Virus record (IMG/VR): IMGVR_UViG_3300030419_004901
Coordinates: 1-21,551 of that record
Length of the DNA stretch: 21,551 bases
Strand: one strand, 5' to 3'
Source: a virus
Positions 127-2,324 of this stretch are shown here, in pieces. The notes beneath the pieces are model-generated. The model did not search any database and was not told the origin of the DNA. It saw only the letters and a list, made by a program, of their open reading frames with translations. The number at the start of each line of letters is the position of its first letter. The first letter of the stretch is position 1. The translations under genes and the position numbers were made by a program.

Positions 127-351
127 ATGAACGAGACAACCTATCACATCTACGCAAAGGATAAGGTTTTATATCATAATTTAAAGAAGGACGATTTTGA
201 AGAGAAATGGGAAATGCTCAATGTATTAGTCGGACTTTTAAAGACTGACTATGCATCCGAGGACTTGTCATTTATTGAACTTCCGTCTAAAATAGGGTAT
301 GGTGGAGGATCTATTTCTTGGCCAGATGCACCCGGAGAACCGTCTTTTTAA
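127..351 (+). CDS. Conserved small phage protein, 74 aa, function unknown
   Basis: A short soluble protein opening with MNETTYHIYAKDKVLYHNL. Next comes an amphipathic, probably helical stretch (DFEEKWEMLNVLVGLLKT, about residues 22-40), then an acidic segment (DYASEDLSF), and a Gly/Pro-rich tail with GYGGGSISW and PGEPSF. The YHIYAKDK...YH opening and the GYGGG...PGEP ending resemble small uncharacterised proteins I associate with T4-like cyanophages, where they sit near recombination or baseplate genes. No catalytic motif, signal peptide or membrane segment is visible. No clear Shine-Dalgarno precedes the ATG. Its TAA (349-351) is two bases before the next ATG (354), so it is probably co-transcribed and coupled with the oxygenase. 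Confidence 0.75.
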   Translation: MNETTYHIYAKDKVLYHNLKKDDFEEKWEMLNVLVGLLKTDYASEDLSFIELPSKIGYGGGSISWPDAPGEPSF

Positions 352-353
352 AA

Positions 354-983
354 ATGAAACTAACTTGTCATGAAGTTGATCATCCATGGATCAGCATCGA
401 AGATTTCTATAATGAAGAAGAACTAAGGATGGTATGGGAGGAACTTGAGTTCTTGTCTTACCCCCATAAGTTATTGCCGCCTGATAAAACAACAGCAGCA
501 ATAAAGGATGGAGAGATACTTAAAAAGAATGCAGCAGTATTCTTAGATCATCTTTATGCAAATAGAGGAATATCCAATATTTTAAGTGTTAATAGAAAGT
601 TACTGAATTGTAATATCACTAATGATCATAACCTTGATATCTTTAAGAACCATGATAATTGGTTTTTTAAGTACTATAAGACATGGGATGATTTTACCAT
701 GATATCATACTATGAGGATAGTGATTATTACAAACCTCATGATGATAAATCTGGAATAACAGCAATAACTTGGTTTTTTAAAGAACCAAAGAGGTTTACT
801 GGAGGAGATTTAATATTTCCACATACAAAAGAAAAGATAGAATGTAAGAATAATAAGGTAGTAGTATTTCCTTCTTGTGTAATACATCAAGCAACGGAAA
901 TAAAAATGGAAAAGAAATATCAAGGACAAAGACTTGGTAGATATGCTATGTCACAGTTTTTATCTCCTGCACCAACTTTATAG
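354..983 (+). CDS. 2-oxoglutarate/Fe(II)-dependent oxygenase (prolyl-4-hydroxylase-like)
   Basis: A 209-aa single-domain dioxygenase that should couple 2-oxoglutarate decarboxylation to hydroxylation of an unknown substrate. The iron triad is visible: H129-x-D131 in YYKPHDD, and distal H178 in FPSCVIHQATEI. R196 in GRYAMSQF, or less likely R193, would bind the 2-oxoglutarate carboxylate. Between them lie the typical strands TAITWFF and GGDLIFP. The ~90-residue N-terminal region carries no motif I recognise. An in-frame TTG at 318 would extend the protein by 12 residues into the preceding gene, but the ATG at 354, two bases after that gene's stop, is far more natural. Such oxygenases are common accessory genes of marine T4-like phages. 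Targets could be phage structural proteins, host proteins or nucleic acid; nothing in the sequence decides. Confidence 0.85.
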   Translation: MKLTCHEVDHPWISIEDFYNEEELRMVWEELEFLSYPHKLLPPDKTTAAIKDGEILKKNAAVFLDHLYANRGISNILSVNRKLLNCNITNDHNLDIFKNHDNWFFKYYKTWDDFTMISYYEDSDYYKPHDDKSGITAITWFFKEPKRFTGGDLIFPHTKEKIECKNNKVVVFPSCVIHQATEIKMEKKYQGQRLGRYAMSQFLSPAPTL

Positions 984-1012
984 TTGACTTATACATAATT
1001 ACACTGTATAAT
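984..1012 (+). promoter_or_regulatory. Sigma70-type promoter TTGACT-17-TATAAT
   Basis: A -35 box TTGACT (984-989) and a perfect -10 box TATAAT (1007-1012) are separated by exactly 17 nt and begin right after the oxygenase stop codon (TAG, 981-983). Transcription would start near 1019. The mRNA would carry TGAAGG (1018-1023) as a weak, rather distant ribosome site for the ATG at 1036. It is the only near-consensus host-type promoter I noticed in the window. It suggests that the glycosyltransferase unit is transcribed by unmodified host polymerase rather than from the late system used by its neighbours. Confidence 0.7.
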
Positions 1013-1035
1013 TGAAATGAAGGTAATTAAAGTTT

Positions 1036-1809
1036 ATGGCAAAAGGATTTACTGTTAAAGCTAATACTCCTAAGAAGAAAGCACCAACTTGGGATTATGA
1101 TGCTATTAAGGCACGGATGAAAGGAAAGACAATAGTGTTTTGTCTTCCAGGTCGTGGATGTTCTTACATCTTCATGAAAAACTTCGTGCAGTTATGCTTT
1201 GATATGGTTCAGAATGGTATGTCCATCCAAATTTCACAGGACTACTCTTCTATGGTGAACTTTGCACGTTGTAAGTGTCTTGGTGCTAATGTTTTACGTG
1301 GTCCTGATCAGATTCCTTGGGATGGGAAACTGACTTATGATTATCAACTCTGGATCGACTCAGATATTGTCTTTAACACAGAGAAGTTCTGGCAACTTTG
1401 TGATGTGGCAATTCCTGCAGAAGAAGAGGGGAGAGAAATTACTGCTGGTTGGTATGCAACAGAAGATGGCTCAACGACTTCAGTAGCACACTGGTTAGAA
1501 GAAGATGATTTCCGTAAGAACGGTGGAGTGATGAATCATGAAACTGTTGAATCAATGGGCAAACGCAACAAACCTTTCACTGTTGATTACACAGGATTTG
1601 GTTGGGTAATGATTCAGAAGGGTGTGTTTGAAAATAAAGAAATGAAGTATCCTTGGTTTGCTCCAAAGATGCAAGTCTTTGAATCAGGTGCTGTTCAAGA
1701 TATGTGTGGCGAGGATGTCTCGTTCTGTCTTGATGCAATTGATGCAGGTTATAAAATCTGGTGCGATCCTCGTATAAGGGTTGGCCACGAAAAAACTCGC
1801 ATTATATAA
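1036..1809 (+). CDS. GT-A type glycosyltransferase
   Basis: A 257-aa protein that should transfer a sugar from a nucleotide-sugar donor. After a basic leader (KANTPKKKAPTWD), the first Rossmann-like strand and loop is TIVFCLPGRGCSYIF (residues 32-46). The metal-binding DxD is in LWIDSDIVF (D108, D110). Near the C-terminus come GEDVSFC (225-231), the acidic motif seen in GT2/GT27-like enzymes, and RVGH (H251), matching the late His that often completes the metal site. There is no signal peptide or membrane segment, so it is cytoplasmic. It starts behind a strong sigma70 promoter and ends one base before the next ATG. It is GC-richer (26/60 at 1261-1320) than the oxygenase upstream (15/60 at 541-600). 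Donor and acceptor are unknown; candidates are virion proteins, phage DNA bases or host surface glycans. Confidence 0.75.
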   Translation: MAKGFTVKANTPKKKAPTWDYDAIKARMKGKTIVFCLPGRGCSYIFMKNFVQLCFDMVQNGMSIQISQDYSSMVNFARCKCLGANVLRGPDQIPWDGKLTYDYQLWIDSDIVFNTEKFWQLCDVAIPAEEEGREITAGWYATEDGSTTSVAHWLEEDDFRKNGGVMNHETVESMGKRNKPFTVDYTGFGWVMIQKGVFENKEMKYPWFAPKMQVFESGAVQDMCGEDVSFCLDAIDAGYKIWCDPRIRVGHEKTRII

Positions 1810-1810
1810 T

Positions 1811-1897
1811 ATGCAGATAGCGTCGTTGCTCGGACTCGTAGTTGTTTTAGCAATTTGCGGGTTCGCTCTCTACCTTAAATCTTACAATCCACACTAA
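1811..1897 (+). CDS. 28-aa single-helix membrane peptide
   Basis: A very short ORF. It starts at an ATG one base after the glycosyltransferase stop (TAA, 1807-1809) and ends at TAA 1895-1897. The product is MQIASLLGLVVVLAICG followed by FALYLKSYNPH. Residues 3-22 form one uninterrupted hydrophobic helix, and the K-S-Y-N-P-H tail would sit at the membrane face. No Shine-Dalgarno is visible, so translation is probably coupled to the upstream gene. The helix with a short polar tail recalls tiny photosystem or cytochrome subunits and phage membrane peptides, but I cannot match it to a named family. The clean hydrophobic pattern, tight spacing and location before another small gene argue that it is real. 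Confidence 0.6.
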   Translation: MQIASLLGLVVVLAICGFALYLKSYNPH

Positions 1898-1905
1898 TTT
1901 ACATT

Positions 1906-2058
1906 ATGGCAGTCAAAACTAAAGCAGGTGCATGGGGAAGTACCACTTTTAGCGATACACCCCCCAAGAAAACTCGTCAAGGAAGAGGAAAACATACTAA
2001 ATACGCCGCGAGTTCTCGGAATTTAGCAAAAAAACGCTACCGAGGACAAGGAAAATAA
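1906..2058 (+). CDS. 50-aa basic conserved phage protein
   Basis: Begins MAVKTKAGAWGSTTFSDTPP and continues with a strongly basic second half: KKTRQGRGKHTKYAAS, then RNLAKKRYRGQGK at the end. I count about 16 Lys/Arg in 50 residues against one Asp. It is probably nucleic-acid binding or disordered in the free state. Small basic proteins ending in a K/R-rYRGQG tail are, to my recollection, recurrent uncharacterised proteins of T4-like cyanophages. The start lies 8 nt after the membrane peptide's stop and no ribosome site is obvious. The intrinsic terminator begins immediately after its stop, making it the last gene of the sigma70-driven unit. Local GC is high (29/60 at 1921-1980). Confidence 0.7.
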   Translation: MAVKTKAGAWGSTTFSDTPPKKTRQGRGKHTKYAASSRNLAKKRYRGQGK

Positions 2059-2060
2059 AT

Positions 2061-2087
2061 AAAAGGGACTCGAAAGAGTCCTTTTTT
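2061..2087 (+). terminator. Rho-independent terminator
   Basis: A perfect 6-bp stem GGACTC (2066-2071) / GAGTCC (2076-2081) closes a GAAA tetraloop (2072-2075) and is followed by six T (2082-2087). The A-run before the stem (2061-2064) can pair with the T-run, so the structure could also terminate from the other strand. It sits 3 nt after the stop of the 50-aa protein and closes the transcription unit that starts at 984. Confidence 0.9.
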
Positions 2088-2093
2088 AATGAA

Positions 2094-2098
2094 AGAGG
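2094..2098 (+). promoter_or_regulatory. Ribosome binding site AGAGG that fixes the start at 2104
   Basis: AGAGG lies 5 nt before the ATG at 2104. The in-frame ATG at 2089 overlaps the end of the terminator T-run and has no ribosome site, so 2104 is the better start. Confidence 0.6.
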
Positions 2099-2103
2099 TA
2101 AAA

Positions 2104-2304
2104 ATGGCTGCACAACACGATTTTTTAGACAATTTGGCAAATCATCAACACCAAAAGATGCTTCGAGAAATCTCAAATGACGATTTAACACCTAAAAAAC
2201 ACGATACTATAGTCCAAAATGACCTATATGAACGAAAAGATGGTGAATTTGAAGATGATGGCCTTGATTATGACACAGATGCCATTCCTTTAGCAGAATT
2301 TTAG
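2104..2304 (+). CDS. 66-aa acidic-tailed protein, unknown function
   Basis: From the ATG at 2104 the protein begins MAAQHDFLDNLANHQHQKML. A charged middle (REISNDDLTPKKHDT, IVQNDLYERKDG) leads to a strongly acidic C-terminus (EFEDDGLDYDTDAIPLAEF). The first ~30 residues could form a helix; the rest is probably flexible. There is no membrane segment, cysteine or catalytic motif. An in-frame ATG at 2089 would add five residues (MKEVK) but lacks a ribosome site. It lies between the terminator and the gene 25 late promoter, with no clear promoter of its own. GC is low (19/60 at 2161-2220), like the baseplate genes. I do not recognise the family. Confidence 0.65.
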   Translation: MAAQHDFLDNLANHQHQKMLREISNDDLTPKKHDTIVQNDLYERKDGEFEDDGLDYDTDAIPLAEF

Positions 2305-2316
2305 TTAAATATACCT

Positions 2317-2324
2317 GATAAATA
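2317..2324 (+). promoter_or_regulatory. T4-type late promoter GATAAATA
   Basis: GATAAATA within TACCTGATAAATAACTC matches the T4-family late promoter core NATAAATA. It lies in the 50-nt gap between the 66-aa gene and gene 25, 30 nt before the ATG at 2355. Transcription should start about 10 nt downstream. The same extended context recurs before gene 8 (18387-18400), which supports a functional box. It is the likely promoter for 25, 6 and the giant gp7-like gene. Confidence 0.7.

Follow-up and report, generated by a model that had tools for sequence, protein, structure and literature searches.

A conserved glycosyltransferase unit with a composite-looking promoter in T4-like cyanophages

In our preferred reading, to which we would give a probability of roughly 0.7, the segment from 984 to 2087 is an ancient, vertically kept unit of a T4-like cyanophage lineage, in which a predicted glycosyltransferase (GT) and a small basic protein stand behind what looks like a composite of an early and a late promoter. 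The segment lies in a 21,551-nt IMG/VR fragment (the whole of which is called ‘the window’ here) from a cyanomyovirus of the Kyanoviridae type that resembles myoviruses of Synechococcus and Prochlorococcus most closely; its features are collected in Table 1. A preliminary description of this DNA had recognised three genes, all of which are present as open reading frames, in a closed unit expressed on its own from an early-type promoter; each element that it listed is found at the coordinates given, and this part of its interpretation is consistent with the conservation of both ends in relatives. The recent acquisition and the membrane-peptide partnership that it also proposed are at odds with synteny, GC, divergence and the distribution of the peptide. 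The unit belongs to a known phage group; what was unexpected, judging from the sequences compared, is an unusually well conserved, composite-looking promoter.

Table 1. Features of the unit and of its surroundings in the window
Feature	Position	Strand	Remarks
or74	127-351		first listed gene in the order of the window
2OG-Fe(II) oxygenase	360-983		between or74 and the cassette
Cassette	984-2087		promoter, GT, membrane peptide, basic protein, terminator
-35 TTGACT	984-989	+	directly 3′ of the oxygenase stop codon; homologous -35 in relatives
Late-promoter-like box ATACATA	991-997	+	in the sigma70 spacer; TANATA in relatives’ spacers
-10 TATAAT	1007-1012	+	pattern search; relatives’ promoters
Predicted GT-A-fold glycosyltransferase, 257 aa	1036-1809	+	PHROG 1574 / T4-GC 102, fold, residues
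Single-span membrane peptide, 28 aa	1811-1897	+	variable slot, not conserved with GT
Basic protein, 50 aa, PHROG 516	1906-2058	+	profile match
Intrinsic terminator GGACTC-GAAA-GAGTCC + T6	2061-2086	+	closes the unit
ac71	2089-2304		directly 3′ of the cassette
Classical late box ATAAATA	2318-2324	+	beyond the cassette; part of the following unit, gp25-gp6
gp25, then gp6, a 4575-aa gp7-like gene and gp8	from 2355		downstream of ac71

Relatives of the GT were found by tblastn in 104 phage records (101 with at least 80% coverage) and, in a scan of IMG/VR, at least 599 times. Up to 80 loci were read in each of two samples, ranked by similarity to the window GT or to the distant S-TIM5 protein, along with reference phages; as both samples were picked by GT similarity, the frequency of GT absence cannot be read from them. 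Part of the loci in the two samples share contigs, and the loci are mutually non-independent, which a tree and clustering lessen and do not abolish.

The promoter TTGACT-17-TATAAT, as previously described, is present at the head of the unit, where it scores 11/12 and would be expected to start transcription near 1019. A lone pattern of this kind is indeed at chance level (one site of at least 11/12 observed in the window, 1.75 expected), but conservation in relatives decides against a chance match: 84 of the 89 loci with a promoter of at least 9/12 5′ of the homologous GT gene share the design of the window promoter. The homologous -35 of relatives is mostly TTGACA and lies about 52 nt 5′ of the GT start.

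Late promoters have the form NATAAATA in cyanomyoviruses (PMC2984593) and CTAAATA in Aeh1 (PMC1524935). In the first sample, 84 of 89 promoters have a related box, TANATA, nested in the spacer, where shuffling gives 5.3 on average and 13 at most; it lies either 5-7 nt or 2-3 nt 3′ of the -35 hexamer. Across a combined set of 162 promoters the nested box is found in 118, and a further 23 have [AC]TAAATA upstream of TAnAAT, in most cases some 70 nt 5′ of the start codon; the sigma70 signal stands alone in 14, and seven carry neither. After clustering at 83% nucleotide identity, 54 of 80 have the nested and 15 the upstream box; in a GT tree of 80 rows the nested form occurs across the whole tree, with the upstream form grouped in one part, and eight of nine loci fetched later, for another purpose, have the nested form. 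Where a sigma70 site of at least 10/12 is lacking, 17 of 23 loci have an exact late box upstream, such a box being expected by chance 0.035 times per 110 nt (S-SM2). A recognisable late box is absent in about 13% of loci, and the promoter in a few.

One might instead suppose that the unit is purely sigma70-driven and early, and that TANATA is an A+T-rich feature of the spacer or the site of another regulator, a view that we hold to be possible at appreciably less than even odds. The third base of the nested box (T 47, C 30, A 19, G 4; mostly TATATA or TACATA) differs from the late consensus, in which this base is almost always A (late genes of S-SM2, with TAAATA, and gp25 promoters), and some lineages keep the sigma70 promoter with no box at all. 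Composition, however, would give a box in only 5.3 of the 89 spacers, against the 84 observed; the sites of the form TTGACN-16/18-TANAAT in six complete phage genomes (9-31 per genome) nearly all lack a spacer box; the derived part of the tree that has no nested box has a perfect [AC]TAAATA upstream; and the distance from the box to each of the two hexamers differs by about 3 nt between groups, a freedom that an element of its own could have. With a strict composite pattern, each of three genomes that carry the GT gave a single occurrence, at that gene, and two genomes without a GT at the usual place gave none. Because the third base is off consensus, a late-promoter function of the nested box is probable and short of demonstrated; the box might work as a late promoter of low strength, or be recognised by some other factor.

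No late box was found between the GT and basic-protein genes in 134 loci, and one 5′ of or74, considered as a general feed of the unit, was seen in only 1 of 90. The gp25 promoters of the same loci are dominated by [AC]TAAATA (mostly ATAAATA or CTAAATA); the late boxes earlier attributed to neighbouring genes were located at 2318 (gp25) and 18393 (gp8).

Other promoter arrangements were also seen. At the loci with an upstream box (L114, L119, L120, L128, L142, L158, L171, L175 and others) the late box, mostly CTAAATA, is followed by a conserved block that ends in GTGGTAnAAT or similar and has the look of an extended -10, the arrangement as a whole lying about 70 nt 5′ of the GT start. A small subgroup without any late box (L151, L154, L157, L170, L173, L179 and L197) carries, 5′ of the GT and just 3′ of TATAAT, a perfect conserved palindrome, TGAATGCATTCA or TGAATCGATTCA, that is operator-like. 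Another promoter type recurs in S-SM2 (186745), SynMITS9220M01 (186569), P-SSM2 (235229) and DSL-LC03 (163422): TTGACTATATA...TATAAT, in which TATATA adjoins the end of the -35 hexamer.

Overlapping early and late promoters have been proposed for middle genes of the T4-like phages RB49, S-PM2 and Syn9 (PMC2984593), and the GT has, like these, a sigma70-type promoter together with a late-like box before one gene. Set against the late-box form NATAAATA/CTAAATA, the 118 nested boxes agree only if the third base is relaxed, and the 23 upstream boxes are exact. In contrast to those promoters, the window-type box sits inside the spacer, with its third base off consensus, the layout is near-fixed across the whole locus family, and a search with the strict pattern found the composite nowhere else in the genomes checked. 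T4-like cyanophages are said to lack MotA/AsiA and to have gp55, gp33 and gp45, their early-to-late timing being described as unclear (PMC2984593). In S-SM2 (the window itself being only a fragment) the annotation includes gp55, gp33 and gp45 and lists neither motA nor asiA.

At its other end the unit is closed, as the preliminary description had it, by a clean intrinsic terminator (-14.5 kcal/mol, shuffle z -5.6), of which a generic terminator scan listed the minus-strand side only. Its position is conserved: by strict criteria a terminator stands 3′ of the basic-protein gene at 63 of 163 loci (39%; 52 distinct sequences) and 3′ of the GT at 5 of 182, and none was found after gp25, gp6, or74 or ac71 in the same locus survey.

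The placing of the cassette ‘inside the late region’ does not hold for S-SM2, where the GT gene marks the boundary between a long run of small hypothetical genes with sigma70 promoters and the late block of gp25-gp6-gp7-gp8, followed by neck, sheath and tube genes. There, sigma70 sites of at least 11/12 number five in the 50-60 kb bin and 1, 0, 0 and 0 in the next four bins to 100 kb; the GT promoter, at 59,175, is the last strong site ahead of some 40 kb in which late structural genes predominate, with the exception of one TTGAAA site inside gp7. It is this border position, rather than a foreign origin, that accounts for an early-type promoter beside late boxes.

The same comparison bears on the suggestion that the cassette is a moron; that is, a recently acquired block of foreign GC, independently expressed within the late region. 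With the morons of tailed phages it shares its own promoter and terminator, its GC lies above that of neighbouring genes, and the usual place holds no GT in further genera, among them those to which S-RIM2 and S-CAM4 belong, two phages that keep the basic protein near gp25. Morons are optional inserts, whereas this unit is non-optional among its relatives: the GT lies within 3.5 kb 5′ of gp25 at all 146 loci holding both (loci chosen for the GT), and the order GT to basic protein, on the same strand, is kept at 160 of 161. What varies around and between these two genes is the membrane peptide, proteins of about 50 aa, other small genes, oxygenases and a protein of about 223 aa.

The four GC counts behind that suggestion were correct on recount, and the GT exceeds gp6 in GC at 79 of 79 loci; the contrast is due chiefly to the low GC of the baseplate genes, so that the neighbours chosen were unrepresentative, a choice for which the window offered no alternative. 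In S-SM2 the GT stands at only the 75th percentile of GC and the 65th of GC3, and gp25-gp8 are the outliers, with GC3 of 0.23-0.27, near the 10th percentile (0.236). Median fourfold-site divergence is 0.556 for the GT, 0.585 for gp6 and 0.606 for gp25; synonymous sites in the GT are thus as saturated as those of gp6, which argues against a recent sweep, since that would lower the GT value only. A host origin of the GT was also considered, and a genome scan gave no cellular source: its ten hits are cyanophage contigs binned into unrelated MAGs (L191-L200; labelled Euryarchaeota, Chlamydiae, Woesearchaeota, Flavobacteriales and others). Among relatives, then, the genes, their place and the GC contrast are the same, an outcome that the preliminary description had itself named as contrary to its reading, with the GT missing there only at the deeper family level of S-RIM2 and S-CAM4; we regard a moron as most improbable, and the unit, as far as these sequences tell, is an old and fixed part of the genome in relatives that may go back to an ancient single gain within the cyanophages.

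A better candidate for a recent insert would be the oxygenase, in view of an or74-to-GT gap of 688 nt in the window, where the oxygenase intervenes, versus a median of 40 nt in 92 loci. No protein similar to it was found near the GT in the relatives fetched, which also speaks against a fixed oxygenase and GT pair, an idea that came from the LH3-like fold described below; other 2OG-Fe oxygenases near the GT are sporadic only and at differing places.

The GT is a member of PHROG 1574 (E 3.9e-119) / T4-GC 102, a family that carries no function and is ‘hypothetical’ in P-SSM2, S-SM2 and S-SSM7, and it is 76-89% identical to most marine relatives. The GT-A assignment of the window member is made here, from a predicted structure and from catalytic residues. 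Its AlphaFold2 model (pLDDT 88.9) matches LH3, Mnn9 and GalNAc-T in Foldseek (E 1.7e-7) as well as phage proteins of GT-A type, and a profile search reached a single solved structure, A197 (PDB 2c0n; E 5.7e-4), which we take to be the glycosyltransferase of an archaeal virus. With the GT domain of LH3, Mnn9, GalNAc-T2 and A197 it has in common the predicted fold and a DxD metal site; at about 8-14% identity and a TM of about 0.5, donor and acceptor are not transferable from these fold hits. Across 40 aligned GT sequences, down to 27% identity, D108, D110, E226, D227 and H251 are invariant, so the DxD site and the downstream acidic and His residues are kept in the family. Taken together with the predicted structure, in which no membrane segment is apparent, this suggests a soluble, metal-dependent GT-A glycosyltransferase that would be enzymatically active.

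Phage glycosyltransferases often act on host surface sugars. The GT adjoins a 28-aa membrane peptide in the window, for which an action on the host envelope had been suggested; jointly the two might modify the host surface, for instance to exclude other phages. The peptide, however, is missing in nearly all relatives: it has one match in 50,697 phage records, similar short hydrophobic peptides were seen only in L043, L051 and L093 among the loci fetched, and the slot mostly holds an unrelated protein of about 50 aa, or nothing. With a GT that is predicted to have no membrane span, we find such a pair very unlikely and set the peptide aside as a partner. As the GT has neither a membrane segment nor a conserved membrane partner, a conserved cytoplasmic acceptor (a host protein, a phage protein or DNA) would seem the likelier target than the envelope, a preference in which we have about even confidence.

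The basic protein matches PHROG 516 (E 7.1e-21; matches in 447 phage records), which also occurs in phages without a GT at the usual place. In S-RIM2, one of these (L086:3433-3996), its gene lies between gp25 and a gene with a weak resemblance to PAAR (E 0.0036, short of the Pfam cut-off), a position that suggests a late or tail-related role of its own; if so, the basic protein would benefit from late activity of the GT promoter. In 111 loci the protein of about 223 aa, missing from the window, lies between the basic-protein gene and gp25 (L042:2886-3578; SSM2_093 in S-SM2; SynMITS9220M01_079); it is annotated purM in the latter two genomes, and the L042 copy gave no significant Pfam match.

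Under our preferred reading of an ancient composite unit, we propose that it sits where a region of small early genes gives way to the late baseplate module. Early in infection, the RNA polymerase of the host, carrying the principal sigma factor, would initiate from TTGACT-17-TATAAT; later, the phage sigma factor gp55 would restart the unit from the box nested in the spacer, or from the one just upstream in loci that belong to one part of the tree. The transcript would yield the GT and the basic protein and end at the terminator, which would stop early transcription short of gp25. We tentatively suggest, at a little under even odds, that the nested promoter, with its two interchangeable architectures, is a single switch by which one enzyme is transcribed through the whole infection.

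The GT is far more constrained than its neighbours (median amino-acid distance 0.14, against 0.41 for gp6 and 0.40 for gp25), which predicts an important and conserved target. A compact, conserved promoter that carries both signals offers a clean test object for gene timing in cyanophages and, if the reading proposed here is true, would supply a concrete case of the unexplained ‘middle’ or continuous transcription of cyanomyoviruses, at least for the GT unit.
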